DNA of 64,000 bases, taken from assembly GCF_902729405.1 (NCBI RefSeq), contig NZ_LR746496.1, positions 3,038,001-3,102,000 of the forward strand, written 5' to 3'. Made by a program: the position numbers and the translations under genes. The notes under the pieces were generated by a model that ran no database searches, was not told the origin of the DNA, and saw nothing but the letters and a program-made list of their open reading frames with translations. This stretch comes from Acididesulfobacillus acetoxydans (GTDB lineage Bacteria; Bacillota; Desulfitobacteriia; Desulfitobacteriales; Desulfitobacteriaceae). Each line of letters opens with the position of its first letter. Position 1 is the stretch's first letter. Positions 24,912 to 56,047 of the stretch are shown here, piece by piece.

Positions 24912-24977
24912 TATAGGTCATGTATAGGTCATGTATAGGTCATGTATAGGTCATGTATAGGTCATGCATAGGTTATG
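24912..24977 (+). repeat. 11-bp tandem repeat upstream of nitroreductase
   Basis: TATAGGTCATG is repeated perfectly five times (24912-24966), with a sixth changed copy to 24977. The period is close to one DNA turn, so each copy faces the same side of the helix. It lies 52 bases before the nitroreductase ATG, where it could bind an array of regulator molecules or shift promoter spacing. Confidence 0.9.
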
Positions 24978-37356: not shown

Positions 37357-38784
37357 CTATTCAGCCGTCTTAACCAGTTCCAGCAAAGCCGGAATGCGCG
37401 CGGCTCGTTTATCCGCCAGGGCGACGAGGAGGAAGGTTGCGATGGCAACAGGCCAAGCGAGATAGATGGGATGGGGAACAATATGGGTGGCGGGGACGAA
37501 TTCCCAGACTGCCAGATAGAGGATACCGGTGAGGATGGTCCAGAAGGCGCTTGATCTCCGGCACAACCCGGGCACAAACATCGTGAAAAGGAGAACCACG
37601 GTATAGGCGGAAGTCAGAGTCAGCCCAATAGTCAAGGTGTTAAGAATCCCCGAAACAGTGGTTGCGAGCAAATAAGTGATCACGCTCACCGCCAGGACAA
37701 TGATCCGGGAAGCGGCCATGCGCTCTTTATCACTGATAGCCGGTCTGAAGTAGCGCTTCCAGACATCCTCGATTACCAAGGTAGAGCTGCCCAGCAAGAG
37801 CCCGGAAGCGGAAGAGACATCCGCGGCCCAGAGCCCGGACAGCGTGATCCCGGCCACAATGGGATTCAGGGAGAGCACGACTTTGGGCAAAGCGCTGCTG
37901 GAGACGATGCCGGGGAACTTGGCGGCCGCGATGATGCCCATAATAGCAGACAGAAAACCCATGGGCATGATCAGTAGGCCTCCAACGACAAACCCGCGCC
38001 GGGCCGCCTTTTCATTGCGGGCGGAAAAAGCGATCTGCACGATGGCCTGAGTGGAGAAGGCTTGTGTGATCATGACGGCAAACCAAGCTGCGACAATCAT
38101 CACTCCCACTCCGGCGAGGGGTTTAAACCATGGTCCCTGGGCCGGCAGGGACATTTGAATTGCTTGAAAACCGCCAAAGTGTGATAAGCCGGCTAAGGTG
38201 CCGACGATGATGCCTACGTAAATAACAATTACGTTGACCACATGCGTCAAGCCTACTCCCCACATCCCGCCTATAAGTGTAATGCCGACAAAGACGATGG
38301 CCGTCGTCAGCATTCCCGTATGGGGATTAAAAACCCCAGGCAAGAGGGCGGTCAAGATCGCTCCCCCGGCAACATATTGCAAAGATGTGATCGTGATTTG
38401 CACCAGCAGCTGGCCGATGACGGCGATGGTCCTTCCGGCCGAACTGTAATACTTCTCAAATAACTCCGGGATAGTCGCTATCTTCATTTTGCGGTAACGC
38501 CCGGCAACTGTCAGCCCGACCAGAATACCCCCCGCGGCCCAGGCCACGTTGTACCACCCGGCCGATATCCCGGCCGTATAGGCGTTCTGGGCCACCCCAA
38601 TCGTGGAAGAACCCCCGATGGCAAGCCCTGCCAGGTTTACCGCCACCAAAATCATGGGCATGTTGCGTCCGGCAAGCAGATATCCTTCTGCCCCGTCTCT
38701 CTTAGCCAGGCTCTTGGAAAACCAGGAAACCGCAAAGAGCAAGATGATATAACCCATGACAATTATTAAAGGCACAAGGTGCAT
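37357..38784 (-). CDS. Sodium:solute symporter (SSS family)
   Basis: 475 residues with about thirteen membrane helices; SSS marks are YLLAGRNMPMILVAVNLAGLAIGGSSTIGVA near the start and the central GLWAADVSSASGLLLGSSTLVIEDVWKRY. The ATG at 38784 follows GGAAAGGAA. The family moves carboxylates, sugars or amino acids with sodium. Lying downstream of larA on the same strand, it may import the LarA substrate (a 2-hydroxy acid), but an IscB relic separates them. Substrate unknown. Confidence 0.88.
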   Translation of the reverse strand: MHLVPLIIVMGYIILLFAVSWFSKSLAKRDGAEGYLLAGRNMPMILVAVNLAGLAIGGSSTIGVAQNAYTAGISAGWYNVAWAAGGILVGLTVAGRYRKMKIATIPELFEKYYSSAGRTIAVIGQLLVQITITSLQYVAGGAILTALLPGVFNPHTGMLTTAIVFVGITLIGGMWGVGLTHVVNVIVIYVGIIVGTLAGLSHFGGFQAIQMSLPAQGPWFKPLAGVGVMIVAAWFAVMITQAFSTQAIVQIAFSARNEKAARRGFVVGGLLIMPMGFLSAIMGIIAAAKFPGIVSSSALPKVVLSLNPIVAGITLSGLWAADVSSASGLLLGSSTLVIEDVWKRYFRPAISDKERMAASRIIVLAVSVITYLLATTVSGILNTLTIGLTLTSAYTVVLLFTMFVPGLCRRSSAFWTILTGILYLAVWEFVPATHIVPHPIYLAWPVAIATFLLVALADKRAARIPALLELVKTAE

Positions 38785-38931
38785 ACCTATCCCGTTCCTT
38801 TCCTTTTCTCGTAATCGGAATGCGATTCCGGGGATGAGAGCGCTTCCCTCAAGAACTTCATGCATATGGTCAATATCCATGGTATAACAAAACTGTGCAT
38901 AAATTCGGGAATACCCGACGTGCAACTTACT

Positions 38932-39054: not shown

Positions 39055-39215
39055 GTCTCTCCTCCTAACGGAGTCTACGTAAGGGGCCGGTAACGCAGAA
39101 TAAATCCTGTCTCTCCTCGCCAATGTTATGAAAGCTTGAATGTGTTCCCGCCACTGGCTTAACCCTTGTACACCTGGAATTACTCCCTACAAGCCCTTGC
39201 CCTTAGGAGCCTTTA
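39055..39215 (-). ncRNA. Candidate omega-RNA region upstream of the IscB relic
   Basis: In ISC loci the guide omega-RNA is encoded just upstream of iscB. The minus strand from about 39215 to 39055 is non-coding, rich in paired G/C blocks (GGCGAGGAGAGACAGG, GGATTTATTC, CCGGCCCCTTACG) and runs straight into the IscB ribosome site. Its upstream edge (ACCACCCCATGCCTAAAGGC) looks like an IS200/605 left-end subterminal hairpin and lies inside the last codons of larA. Sequence type and position support it; folding was not computed. Confidence 0.45.
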
Positions 39216-40515
39216 GGCATGGGGTGGTTGACCCGCTGACTTCACCCGATTGAAACAGCGGGATCGTGGCTCCGCCGTATGGCATCACAATCGTCTCTTG
39301 TTTCCGTCCAATCCCCGCTGACTCTAAGGCGTCTTCAAGGTTATTAACGCCGAGAATGCCCATGGGCTTAACCGATTCCGGGTCTATCGCAGAGAGGAGA
39401 ACCACCCTGGCCTTACGTGCCGCCTCGACAGCCGCGTAAAAAATGTATCCGGGAATGGTAAAGTTCTTGCGCAGTTCGGGGTCGAGGCGTCCCGCCTTTA
39501 AGGGACCGCTCCAGCCGAAAAACTCATCGGCCCCCGCTCCTTCCCGGCACTCGGCCAGCATCAGAACGGTGCCGCCTTCCTTCACGGCCAGTGAGGCATT
39601 GAACAACGTCTTCGTTCCTTGATATAAAGAGATGTCTTTCGGGTAGCCGCCGCAACTCGCAACGACCAAATCGGCCTTTCGCTCAATAGGTACTCCGTAT
39701 TTTTCATCCGCCCAGCGACAGCCCTCTTCCCAGGCGCTAAGCCAGTCTCCCGCCACCAGCCTGGCGAGCTTGCCATTCGTGTGAACAATGGAATTAATCA
39801 AGAAAGCCGGCTTCACTAGGCGGGCGCAATCCACCATGTCCTCATGCAGGGGATTTCCCGCTAAAGCCCCAACCCCGATCAAAGGATTGGAGCGCTCCGC
39901 CTCTGGATCCAAGGCATGCAAGTGGTTTTCGGCAATGGTCCGGCGGCTGGACACACCAGGAACGATCGACTTGCGTCCACCCCCGAAACCAGCCATCAGA
40001 TGATGGACAATGGCACCCGTGAGGATCACCTTGCGCTCAACTGCCAACCTGTTGACGTCGACTCTGGTTCCCCTCGGAGTGGTGCCTGCATAAACCATTT
40101 CCGAACGGTCGCAATCATGGTCCACAACCGCTAAGCGCCGGAAGAGTTCAGGGCCAAGGATTTTCTCTTTTTCTGCCACCGTCTGGGCCCGATGCGTTCC
40201 CGTGGCAATCAAAACCAGGATATCCCCGTCGGGGATTCCCAAACGATTCAGCCTATCTACGAGCGTCGGTAAATACTCCGACAACAGAACCTGCCTAGTG
40301 ATGTCGCTGACAACAATGGTGACTTTGTCCCCTCTTTCGAACAATTCGTCGAAAGGTTTGGAGTCAACGGGGTGATCCAAGACATGGTTCACCTCTGACG
40401 GTACATCGTCAATGGTCTCAATCTCCCGGGCCTCAAGCACCTGGATCACATTTCCTTCCTGCAAAGGCAAATCCAAAAATCCGTCCCCGTACTTAAAGTG
40501 ATAAAATCTTTCCAT
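39187..40515 (-). CDS. larA: LarA-family nickel-dependent racemase/epimerase
   Basis: 442 residues with the LarA catalytic elements: ATGTHRAQT (first catalytic His), GAIVHHLMAGFGGGRKSIVPG (second His, and the Lys that carries the nickel-pincer cofactor) and ENHLHALDP. LarA enzymes interconvert D- and L-2-hydroxy acids; this could act on lactate or a relative. No larB, larC or larE is in the window, so the cofactor must be made elsewhere. The C-terminus after MPYGGATIP runs about 20 residues longer than usual, into an IS-like end, so the native end was probably replaced. The ATG at 40515 overlaps the stop of the repeat frame upstream (TGATG). Confidence 0.87.
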   Translation of the reverse strand: MERFYHFKYGDGFLDLPLQEGNVIQVLEAREIETIDDVPSEVNHVLDHPVDSKPFDELFERGDKVTIVVSDITRQVLLSEYLPTLVDRLNRLGIPDGDILVLIATGTHRAQTVAEKEKILGPELFRRLAVVDHDCDRSEMVYAGTTPRGTRVDVNRLAVERKVILTGAIVHHLMAGFGGGRKSIVPGVSSRRTIAENHLHALDPEAERSNPLIGVGALAGNPLHEDMVDCARLVKPAFLINSIVHTNGKLARLVAGDWLSAWEEGCRWADEKYGVPIERKADLVVASCGGYPKDISLYQGTKTLFNASLAVKEGGTVLMLAECREGAGADEFFGWSGPLKAGRLDPELRKNFTIPGYIFYAAVEAARKARVVLLSAIDPESVKPMGILGVNNLEDALESAGIGRKQETIVMPYGGATIPLFQSGEVSGSTTPCLKAPKGKGL

Positions 40516-40982
40516 CAATAAAATCCCCCCGAAATAAGTTCCCCCGAAATAACTTCTCCTGAAATAAGTTCCCCTGAATTAAGTTCCCCTAAAATGAGTT
40601 CCCCTGAATTGAGTTCCCCTGAATTGAGTTCCCCTGAATTGAGTTCCCCTGAATTAAGTTCCCCTGAATTAAGTTCCCCTGAATTGAGTTCCCCTGAATT
40701 GAGTTCCCCTGAATTAAGTTCCCCTGAATTGAGTTCCCCTGAATTGAGTTCCCCTGAATTAAGTTCCCCTGAATTGAGTTCCCCTGAATTAAGTTCCCCT
40801 GAATTGAGTTCCCCTGAATTGAGTTCCCCTGAATTGAGTTCCCCTGAATTAAGTTCCCCTAAAATAAGTTCCCCTAAAAAAAGTTCCCCTAAAAAAAGAC
40901 ACCCCGAAGGGGTGCCCGTTACTCTACACCTCCCTGCCGTCCTACCCATTTTCACTTGTTCGGGATCTCCGGAACTGGTCAC
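40515..40982 (-). CDS. Low-complexity LNSGE-repeat open frame coupled to larA
   Basis: The frame is open for 155 codons and is mainly a run of the five-residue unit LNSGE, with variants LFLGE, LILGE and LISGE. It ends ISGGFY at TGA, which overlaps the larA ATG, so if translated it would couple to larA. No convincing ribosome site precedes its possible starts. A terminator hairpin lies inside its 5' part. The opposite strand is equally open (SSPEL repeat), so it may simply be a minisatellite. Not a standard pentapeptide-repeat protein (A[DN]LXX). Confidence 0.35.
   Translation of the reverse strand: MTSSGDPEQVKMGRTAGRCRVTGTPSGCLFLGELFLGELILGELNSGELNSGELNSGELNSGELNSGELNSGELNSGELNSGELNSGELNSGELNSGELNSGELNSGELNSGELNSGELNSGELNSGELILGELNSGELISGEVISGELISGGFY
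40528..40892. repeat. 15-bp minisatellite, about 24 copies
   Basis: The unit is TTCCCCTGAATTGAG (plus strand), alternating with ...TTAAG; the outer copies at both ends are more divergent, as expected for a tract that grows from the inside. The copies nearest the terminator read TTCCCCTAAAAAAAG and grade into its U tract, suggesting that the array began there. Confidence 0.93.
40889..40915 (-). terminator. Terminator/attenuator in the larA leader
   Basis: On the minus strand GGGCACCCC-TTCG-GGGTGTC is followed by seven T residues: a classical intrinsic terminator with a stable tetraloop. It lies about 375 bases upstream of larA in the same direction and no gene on this strand ends just before it, so it probably controls read-through into larA. 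Confidence 0.75.
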
Positions 40983-41023
40983 CCTGCCGGATTAAGAGGC
41001 GGCCGCCCAAATACCGCTCCCCC

Positions 41024-41101
41024 ACCACAGGACTCGCGCTATAATACACACCACAGGATTTGCGCTATAATACACACCACAGATTTTGCGCCATAATACA
41101 C
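41024..41101. repeat. Three 26-bp tandem repeats carrying -10-like boxes
   Basis: Units begin ACCACAG at 41024, 41050 and 41076. Each holds GCGCTATAATACAC (the third has one change), so the plus strand carries two TATAAT and one CATAAT boxes and the minus strand TATTATA. They lie between larA's leader and yihY and may multiply promoter or operator sites. Confidence 0.85.
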
Positions 41102-41221
41102 TGTTAAGAAACCGCATCTGATATACAACTCTTTTCATTCAGTCTAGTTGATCAAACACATCCTGTCAATAACCTCAGCTCTCCGCCTTTTTGCTTTCCG
41201 GGGTCTCATGTGACCAGTCGC

Positions 41222-42145
41222 TCAGCGGGCCTTTTCCGGACCCGTCCGCTCCGGCCCGCTCTGTCCGGACCCCAGCACCGCATTCAGGGCCACGGCCGCC
41301 TCAGCCCCCAACAGGACGATAATACTCACAATGTAGGCCCAGAGAGTAAAAAGCATAATGAAAGTCAGGCTGCCGTAGATCATCTCGTACACTCCCAAGT
41401 GGCCCGTGTACCAAACGAACGCCTCCCGGGACAGATAGATGCCCAAAGTCGAAATTAAGGAGCCTGTCACCAGGCAGGAATTCTTCAGCTGGTGGCTGGG
41501 CAAAATGCGAAAGCAGAAATAACAAGTAAGAAAGAGGAGAAGGGGAAACAAGACATACGAGGCCGTTTGGAAGAAATCCAAGCGGAGAAAAACCGCTTTC
41601 AGCCCCACCCTGCCCAACGAATGGGTGAGAGAGAGAGTCGAGGTCAGGGAGGAGAGAAGGGTCAGAAATAGCAATACACCAAGCATAATAAAACCCACCA
41701 AATACTGTTTTAAGAACGAGCGCGGTTCCCGCACCTCCCAAATAGCGTCTAAGATTCTTTGCAAAGAGACAAATCCTCCCAGCGTCGTCCATAACAGCCC
41801 GACGCCCCCGATGATTCCGATTCTATCGTTCATTAAAGCCAAGTGGGTAATGTTCTCCGTCAGATATAATTTTCCCTGCGGCAGTGTGGGGACATAGGAT
41901 TCCACGACGTTAAGGAGAAAATTCAGGATAACGCCGTGTTGAACGAAAAAGAGCGAAGCCCCGTAGACGAGAAGAAGAGCCAAAGGAATCATGGCCGAGA
42001 AACCAAAAAAAGCCATCACAGCGGCATAAGCGCCGATGTTGTGTTTCATGATTCCACTTACCAGATGGCGAAAAAACTGCCCCGCACCTTTTAAGACCAT
42101 GTTGCCAGCCATTTCCTTCCCAATAGTATCCGACCGCGGCATCAT
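41222..42145 (-). CDS. YihY/BrkB family membrane protein
   Basis: 307 residues with six or more membrane helices and the family pattern: NIGAYAAVMAFFGFSAMIPLALLL early, IGIIGGVGLLWTTLGGFVSLQRILDAIW in the middle, and GSLTFIMLFTLWAYIVSIIVLLGAEAAVALN near the end. It was once called ribonuclease BN, but that activity belongs to another protein; its true function is unclear (perhaps transport). GAGAGGG precedes the ATG at 42145. Confidence 0.88.
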   Translation of the reverse strand: MMPRSDTIGKEMAGNMVLKGAGQFFRHLVSGIMKHNIGAYAAVMAFFGFSAMIPLALLLVYGASLFFVQHGVILNFLLNVVESYVPTLPQGKLYLTENITHLALMNDRIGIIGGVGLLWTTLGGFVSLQRILDAIWEVREPRSFLKQYLVGFIMLGVLLFLTLLSSLTSTLSLTHSLGRVGLKAVFLRLDFFQTASYVLFPLLLFLTCYFCFRILPSHQLKNSCLVTGSLISTLGIYLSREAFVWYTGHLGVYEMIYGSLTFIMLFTLWAYIVSIIVLLGAEAAVALNAVLGSGQSGPERTGPEKAR

Positions 42146-55478: not shown

Positions 55479-55736
55479 AACGGCACCCGGCCTTTAGACA
55501 GATAAAGCGGTAAAAACACCGGACTTACAGGCTCTTATGGGCTGTACCGCCGCCCTGCTCCCAGAGCTGTCCCTCCGATCCCTTACGGCTCCGCTGCCGC
55601 CAACCGGGCTTTTCACTCCTTTCTTCTTCGAAGCTCAGGAATTGATCTTCCTTCCAACCGGTTTTCGTCATCCTTAGAATACACCGAAAACCTTAAGAAT
55701 TTTTTACAGAATGCTTAAATAAAGGTTACAAAAATA
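55479..55736. other. Gap between small membrane gene and tandem hairpins
   Basis: No gene is seen. The part next to the repeat array is AT-rich (TTAAGAATTTTTTACAG and similar). Confidence 0.4.
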
Positions 55737-55973
55737 TTAAAGAAAACTCGGCAGGCCCGAAGGGGCTGACGCAAGTTTTCTTAATCCTACGGAACATCTG
55801 CACTGTTATGGAGGATTAAAGAAAACTCGGCAGGCCCGAAGGGGCTGACGCAAGTTTTCTTAATCCTACGGAACATCTGCACTGTTATGGAGGGTTAAAG
55901 AAAACTCGGCAGGCCCGAAGGGGCTGACGCAAGTTTTCTTAATCCTACGGAACATCTGCACTGTTATGGAGGA
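55737..55973. repeat. Three tandem 79-bp hairpin units
   Basis: Units start TTAAAGAAAACTCGG at 55737, 55816 and 55895 and are nearly identical (one base differs in unit 2). In each, AAGAAAACT pairs with AGTTTTCTT, and an inner GGCCCGAAGGGGC forms a second stem. A related single hairpin lies at 14742-14801. The array is downstream of htrA on the minus strand and may serve as a stacked terminator. Confidence 0.92.
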
Positions 55974-56047
55974 TTAAAAGAAAAAGAAAGGGCCAACCTC
56001 ACTGGGGCCGGCCCCTCACTCATTTAGACCCGTCTTATCACTTAGAG

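Follow-up and report, generated by a model that had tools for sequence, protein, structure and literature searches.

Within the stretch of Acididesulfobacillus acetoxydans DNA that was analysed (64,000 nucleotides, the window), a larA-type gene is preceded by an intergenic region, bounded on its far side by yihY, that contains a tandem repeat. The features of this locus, in window coordinates, are:

37357-38925, minus strand: sodium:solute symporter gene downstream of larA (PF00474, E 6.8e-31)
39187-40515, minus strand: larA-type gene, LarAH10 family (NF052525 540.5 bits, cut-off 540; Lar_N and LarA_C)
40515-40982, minus strand: 155-codon repeat ORF with GTG start, probably not a gene (ORF list, CEB3 comparison, start energies)
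40524-40530, minus strand: Shine-Dalgarno sequence of larA, GGGGGGA, within the last repeat (-11.4 kcal/mol with the anti-Shine-Dalgarno sequence)
40526-40897, minus strand: 15-bp tandem array, from T tract to ribosome site (repeat scan and repeat analysis)
40891-40897, minus strand: T7 tract of the terminator, which doubles as the opening T stretch of the array (read from the sequence)
40898-40917, minus strand: intrinsic terminator hairpin GGGCACCCCTTCGGGGTGTC (terminator scans)
40922-40949, minus strand: 28-nt island ATGGGTAGGACGGCAGGGAGGTGTAGAG, with a NAG-rich motif and the 5′ strand of a possible antiterminator (identical in CEB3)
41023-41101, minus strand: 26-bp repeat, 3.0 copies, in the leader (repeat scan; TRF finds none in the CEB3 leader)
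41140-41173, minus strand: promoter island, TTGACA-17-TAGACT (32 of 34 positions identical in CEB3)

The assignment of the larA product to LarAH10 only just reaches the NCBIfam cut-off. The closest solved structure is that of the malate racemase Mar2, and larA of Peptococcaceae bacterium CEB3, the nearest species compared, is 86-87% identical. The gene is predicted to encode a racemase of hydrophobic 2-hydroxy acids (3-phenyllactate). LarAH10 acts on 3-phenyllactate and 4-hydroxyphenyllactate; in the same report native substrates are described as partly open, indole-3-lactate being suggested for LarAH52 and D-gluconate for LarAH10 (PMC11770544). Substrates of the phenyllactate type would fit control together with aromatic genes, but D-gluconate has been argued for LarAH10 itself. 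Elsewhere in the host genome (G000:C1:2781132-2781839, locus L139) a LarC (Ni_insertion) match within a frame of 245 aa spans 235 of 375 profile positions and may reflect a split larC.

Most of the intergenic region cannot be aligned with that of CEB3, with the exception of two islands. The promoter island is 94% identical and scores 53.6 bits, and a 51-column block comprising the 28-nt motif and the hairpin is 90% identical at 67.1 bits; the best of 100 shuffles reached 27.4 bits. Array-like matches come next, at 31.0 bits and below. The conserved site at 41169-41141 is the sole sigma-70-type promoter-like site between yihY and larA (40510-41222, in a scan confined to this promoter type), and the matching site is likewise the sole one in the stretch of CEB3 scanned. 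Because the terminator and the array lie downstream of this promoter, transcription of larA from it must cross the terminator. That terminator and array lie in the larA leader, as in the original prediction, is borne out. The 26-bp repeat at 41023-41101 bears TATAAT-like text on the plus strand. A riboswitch aptamer in the upstream leader was considered and rejected, the stretch between promoter and 28-nt island having neither a significant match in CEB3 nor a relevant match in Rfam. A stretch GTGAACTCGTTC...GCTGAACATCG of the CEB3 larA leader recurs, by eye, in a further genome of the family (L042, around 2690-2815; L015, upstream of a larA-type gene) and may be a dispersed mobile element.

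The hairpin had been described as a TTCG-loop terminator with seven T residues. The terminator and its T7 tract are found at 40917-40891; the loop needs correction, since the best register gives a 3-nt loop and not a UUCG tetraloop. Judged by sequence, an intrinsic terminator lies between promoter and start codon, the arrangement of an attenuator leader. A terminator of the same CACCC..GGGTG form precedes 5 of the 15 larA orthologs compared and is absent, by script, from the other 10; in genome G008 a bulged version about 25 nt away was read by eye. None of 274 terminator-like sites in 800 kb of the genome has this form. In the larA leader, pairing is possible between AGGG-A-GGUGU, towards the 3′ end of the island, and GCACCCCUU, in the 5′ arm of the terminator. 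A competing antiterminator helix of this kind folds in four of eight leaders (the host's own larA, aroF and hutP, and hutP of G012); no clear one was found in the other four folded (larA of CEB3 and G007, trpX of G012 and hisC of G037).

A covariance model (R1) was built from the three clearest larA leaders, those of the window, CEB3 and G007; the 28-nt island, which is partly common to the G007 leader, is included in it and in its successor R2. On 968 kb of sequence, including 800 kb of genome background, the training sites scored 71-84 bits, and nothing else exceeded 16. Applied to whole genomes of the order, R1 picked out 29 sites at E ≤ 0.01, spread over 20 of 73 genomes. The strongest new sites precede a DAHP synthase gene (aroF), trpX, a gene of hisC type, and one for a small protein that is followed by a chorismate-mutase-like gene; among them is a second site in the host genome. 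That a model trained on larA leaders only should reach aro and trp leaders was counted in favour of a shared aromatic RNA family. The retrained model R2 rests on 18 sites and omits L150, a discarded hit that overlaps a TPP riboswitch; three rows of alignment A4 were dropped from A5, these being a reverse hit of 18 nt in L140, the larA site of G008 and a second L158 site.

With R2, 58 of the 82 genomes of the class, among them 44 of the 45 in the host's family, yielded a total of 115 hits (E ≤ 0.01). Targets were assigned to 93 of these (all 85 at E ≤ 1e-3 and 8 hand-picked from the 30 weaker ones) as the longest ORF of at least 80 aa starting within 600 nt downstream, and grouped by BLAST. At E ≤ 1e-3, 83 of 85 sites lie before 35 aroF, 22 trpX, 8 hutP, 7 hisC, 3 larA, 3 tnaA-type, 2 binding protein, 2 lactate permease and 1 aroE genes, the remaining 2 preceding others; these are orthologous sites in related species and not independent events, while the gene classes are separate. 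The eight weaker annotated hits comprise three before hutP and five before nothing related. Outside the training set, all 53 sites at E ≤ 1e-4 fall in the target classes (28 aroF, 17 trpX, 4 hisC, 2 tnaA-type, 1 hutP, 1 binding protein). Class names rest on one representative each. The host's aroF scores 515.5 with NF006421 (cut-off 335), and the tnaA-type class is of the tryptophanase/tyrosine-phenol-lyase type, its representative scoring 589 with the tryptophanase subfamily model NF009709 (cut-off 285); the trpX representative reaches 341.6 with NF041285, below the cut-off of 390. HutP, shikimate dehydrogenase, the periplasmic binding proteins and lactate permease were named by Pfam. The G037 hisC product lies above the cut-off for histidinol-phosphate transaminase (TIGR01141, 355.5 against 276.55), so that histidine may be involved at the hisC sites. 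In B. subtilis, hisC sits with the trp genes and serves aromatic synthesis too. Taken by these target assignments, the leader RNA family sits mostly before genes for aromatic amino acid synthesis, import or breakdown. Two further observations concern its distribution. The lactate-permease-type genes preceded by the element (L231 and L233, genomes G027 and G036; PF02652 for the G036 protein) perhaps serve uptake of 2-hydroxy acids. Second, mostly weaker copies stand beside another element at G036:C155:30775-30922 (two), L251:18523-18571 (the host's aroF leader) and L158:1347-1390, perhaps as tandem control sites.

The family shows shared sequence and a shared hairpin above chance, in a consistent place before genes. 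AGNANRGNAG occurs in 72 of the 85 sites tested, but in only 4 of 10 hutP sites; this is a description rather than proof, since the model that picked out the sites already contained the motif. A narrower form of it occurs 32 times in the 800-kb background, twice followed by a terminator-like hairpin. The hairpin of the 18-site alignment has 100% standard pairs, with changes on both sides at 4 of 7 pairs, in an alignment fitted to the hairpin and among related sites. Rfam 15 gave no relevant match, to T-box or other family, at the 14 accepted sites covered. Among the ten closest larA orthologs of the family the element exceeds the threshold in only three, the G008 site being a weak fourth (12.4 bits). 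As for simpler searches, an exact sequence pattern matched 3 of 398 genomes, its reversed control also giving 3 matches, and the third match (L138), which falls within long ORFs, was set aside as chance; a fixed-spacing pattern, whose spacing was wrong, returned background only and did no better than its control. Descent from a T-box was also rejected. Among 16 loci scanned T-boxes occur only in the distant L049, L050 and L051, and only that of L049 lies just upstream of larA; this T-box (L049:2597-2808, 139 bits), about 190 nt 5′ of a larA-type gene of Geosporobacter ferrireducens, is a different amino-acid-linked leader.

The array itself, at 40526-40890 on the minus strand, has 24.3 copies with 93% matches (score 548, tandem-repeat scan of the window), as expected from the roughly 24 copies of a 15-bp unit first noted. 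Its minus-strand unit is GGGGAACTYAATTCA. Searched with up to three mismatches through the 4.52-Mb genome, the unit gave 22 matches, all inside this array. The genome is rich in repeats (a sample of 864 kb, window included, has 146 arrays per Mb), and by score the array ranks third among the 126 distinct arrays of that sample. The window also holds a 79-bp repeat of 3.1 copies with 98% matches (55736-55984, outside long ORFs by script) and an 11-bp repeat of six copies, TATAGGTCATG (24912-24977). The repeats had been said to grade into the T tract of the terminator, and they do: the tract merges into the first repeats, its T7 being also their first T stretch. Each repeat combines a T-rich portion with an AGGGG portion, and the ribosome site is the last copy.

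The distance from the terminator stem to the larA ATG is 381 nt in the window, 131 in CEB3, 28 in G007, 25 in G024 and 21 in L047. In the last three, with their short spacers, a T-rich run passes directly into the Shine-Dalgarno sequence. CEB3 too carries an array, now decayed: when two forms of the window unit were compared with its corresponding segment the scores were 74 and 89, higher than 200 of 200 shuffles each, and the segment's self-similarity peaks at 17 bp. We infer that the minisatellite grew by tandem copying of a short segment, T tract plus Shine-Dalgarno sequence, which in relatives forms the spacer between terminator and start. The repeat shows no significant similarity to the single-copy segments of G007, G008, G024 and L047, which are too short for that. 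Arrays as a general trait of larA leaders were rejected: a score of at least 50 was found in two of 14 other upstream regions (G008 and G011), with unrelated sequences, and two are unremarkable given the array density of the genome. These are a 17-bp repeat of 3.1 copies at L052:2911-2963 (G011) and a 22-bp repeat of 2.6 copies at L044:2716-2774 (G008), both just 5′ of larA in genera other than the host's. Most probably the striking 15-base repeat is an expansion, not translated, that separates the putative switch from the gene.

A candidate for the factor acting at the sites is encoded by the host. A 141-aa gene (G000:C1:2964643-2965065, minus strand) behind a weaker copy of the element heads hutP-aroH-trpEGD. 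The copy scores 24.9 bits (E 1.6e-4) in a search of 106 kb only, and it is not among the two R2 hits of the host in the whole-genome search; the CEB3 hutP site has E 0.0077. Behind hutP lie a chorismate mutase gene (TIGR01796, 145.6, cut-off 82), a trpE-like gene (TIGR00564, 419.9, below the cut-off of 517.7), trpG (TIGR00566, 203.7, cut-off 121.05) and trpD (TIGR01245, 374.4, cut-off 199.05). Pfam HutP (PF09021) aligns along the length of the 141-aa protein with 173.5 bits (cut-off 25). Its AlphaFold model has a mean pLDDT of 79.4 and a pTM of 0.79, and all six PDB fold matches at E ≤ 0.001 are HutP, with a moderate TM-score of 0.57-0.66 by query; sequence searches of the PDB with the protein found no HutP. 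By profile and by fold, then, the genome encodes a protein of the HutP family. The NAG spacing for B. subtilis HutP is about 7 nt; it is 8 nt in the larA leader. None of the 93 annotated targets, aromatic for the most part and seven of them of hisC type (biosynthesis), was recognised as a histidine-utilisation gene, and the element was not classed as a hut system. The HutP homologue is the candidate for a factor that would bind the NAG sites.

Our preferred explanation, which we hold to be probable, is that a protein-dependent attenuator in an untranslated leader ties a LarAH10-type racemase to an aromatic regulon, with a HutP-family factor most likely and the array left untranslated. The predicted promoter lies upstream of the terminator, the NAG-rich motif directly upstream of it, and motif and terminator together belong to one RNA family. 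A NAG-binding regulator, most likely the HutP homologue of hutP-aroH-trpEGD, would sense an amino acid or related metabolite, bind the NAG motif and shift the RNA between terminator and antiterminator (AGGG-A-GGUGU with GCACCCCUU), so that the racemase would be expressed with the aromatic regulon. After read-through the ribosome would load at the last repeat, and the array would lengthen the 5′ UTR and not be translated.

It is very improbable, in our judgement, that the repeat frame is instead translated through the terminator and coupled at TGATG to larA, the number of copies setting its expression. The frame on which the original prediction built this idea is present, 155 codons long (40515-40982, minus strand) and ending in a TGATG whose TGA shares its A with the larA ATG; it matches Pfam Pentapeptide_2 (E 3.9e-21), which we read as a by-product of the GELNS repeat. 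An open frame carries little information, however, because nearly any 15-bp unit leaves one open: of 20,000 15-mers obtained by shuffling, with composition unchanged, 99.8% leave one or more frames of a strand open. The CEB3 frame that ends at TGATG has only 25 open codons, stopping short of the terminator, and it cannot be kept there because the unit is 17 bp (repeat period about 17 bp). The in-frame starts are weak: their ribosome sites pair with the anti-Shine-Dalgarno sequence at -1.1, -4.1 and -6.6 kcal/mol, that of larA at -11.4. A strong Shine-Dalgarno-like sequence GGGAGGTG (-14.8 kcal/mol) does precede the hairpin, and at its place CEB3 has an 8-codon GTG ORF and G007 an 18-codon TTG ORF, but the window has no ATG, GTG or TTG between this sequence and the hairpin. 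Translation and coupling are thus unsupported: the original prediction had itself named a frame broken in sister strains as telling against them, and the frame is broken in the sister species CEB3. On the same grounds (frame loss in CEB3, the expectation from shuffling and weak starts) a repeat-encoded protein was rejected, as was a translated pentapeptide-repeat gene, whose frame is not conserved in CEB3, the one relative compared. Also improbable, if slightly less so, is that a small RNA transcribed from the conserved promoter simply stops at the terminator, with larA read from elsewhere and the array a product of neutral slippage. The density of arrays in the genome would suit such slippage, and neutral growth as such is compatible with the attenuator as well; against the small RNA stand the lack of another sigma-70-like promoter up to the larA start and the recurrence of the element before start codons of other genes.

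That TRAP (MtrB) rather than HutP acts at these sites, the leaders being TRAP-type attenuators, we consider unlikely, though less remote than either of these. A TRAP gene was found in 9 of 73 genomes (the host, CEB3 and seven others), and the sites are rich in UAG and GAG and stand before trp genes. Many element-bearing genomes have no TRAP hit, however, among them G004, G007, G012, G016 and G018, so that mtrB does not accompany the element throughout; these five have a HutP-like gene behind one of their elements (the G007 site being weak, E 0.0058), which makes HutP the better candidate. The core of the element, moreover, has two NAGs plus a single NRG, spaced at a period of 8 nt, while stable TRAP binding is reported to take at least seven repeats (PMC4027176).

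More tentatively, and short of an even chance in our estimate, a HutP-family protein may have been re-specialised in the host's family of anaerobes (relatives of Desulfosporosinus and Desulfitobacterium) to an aromatic regulon of synthesis, import and breakdown through one leader RNA family, which the LarAH10 racemase joined, the minisatellite then growing in the host species. If true, this would give the HutP family a second class of targets, supply a one-element aromatic regulon for a bacterial family whose searched genomes mostly lack a TRAP hit, and point to the physiological role for racemases of the LarAH10 group. Neither this element nor an aromatic HutP regulon was found in titles and abstract openings of the open PMC literature, which is weak evidence, as subscription literature lies mostly outside it.

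Comparison with known systems can be made at several levels. The racemase resembles the hydrophobic 2-hydroxyacid racemases LarAH10, LarAH52 and LarAH66 in its family assignment, their reported substrates including 3-phenyllactate (PMC11770544); it differs in that its activity is a prediction, with a score just at the cut-off. The array lies just before its gene like the repeats upstream of M. tuberculosis fpg1, where longer arrays are reported to go with higher mRNA; that array, situated between rnc and fpg1, differs from strain to strain, whereas the larA array lies between an apparent attenuator and the ribosome site (PMC2734929). Like mycobacterial MIRU elements, it is a repeat with an ORF overlapping a start codon, but MIRUs are described as dispersed, with an overlap of -4 nt, while the larA array was found at a single place in the genome, with an overlap of -1 nt and a frame not kept in CEB3 (PMC12548453). 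With the TRAP-controlled trp attenuation of B. subtilis the leader family has in common its NAG triplets, a possible choice between antiterminator and terminator, and aromatic targets (PMC4027176, PMC7430163); unlike the 11 triplets of TRAP, its element is a short motif and occurs in genomes with no TRAP hit. A further comparison is with HutP antitermination at B. subtilis hut, in which HutP is reported to bind clusters of three NAG repeats and prevent terminator formation; both have a HutP-family protein and a NAG-rich site adjoining an intrinsic terminator (PMC7430163). The predicted fold of the host's homologue matches the HutP entries 1vea, 1wpv, 1wmq, 4h4l and 1wrn. Differences lie in an identity of 21-23%, in the NAG period of 8, and in a gene neighbourhood and targets that are for the most part aromatic and not concerned with histidine use.
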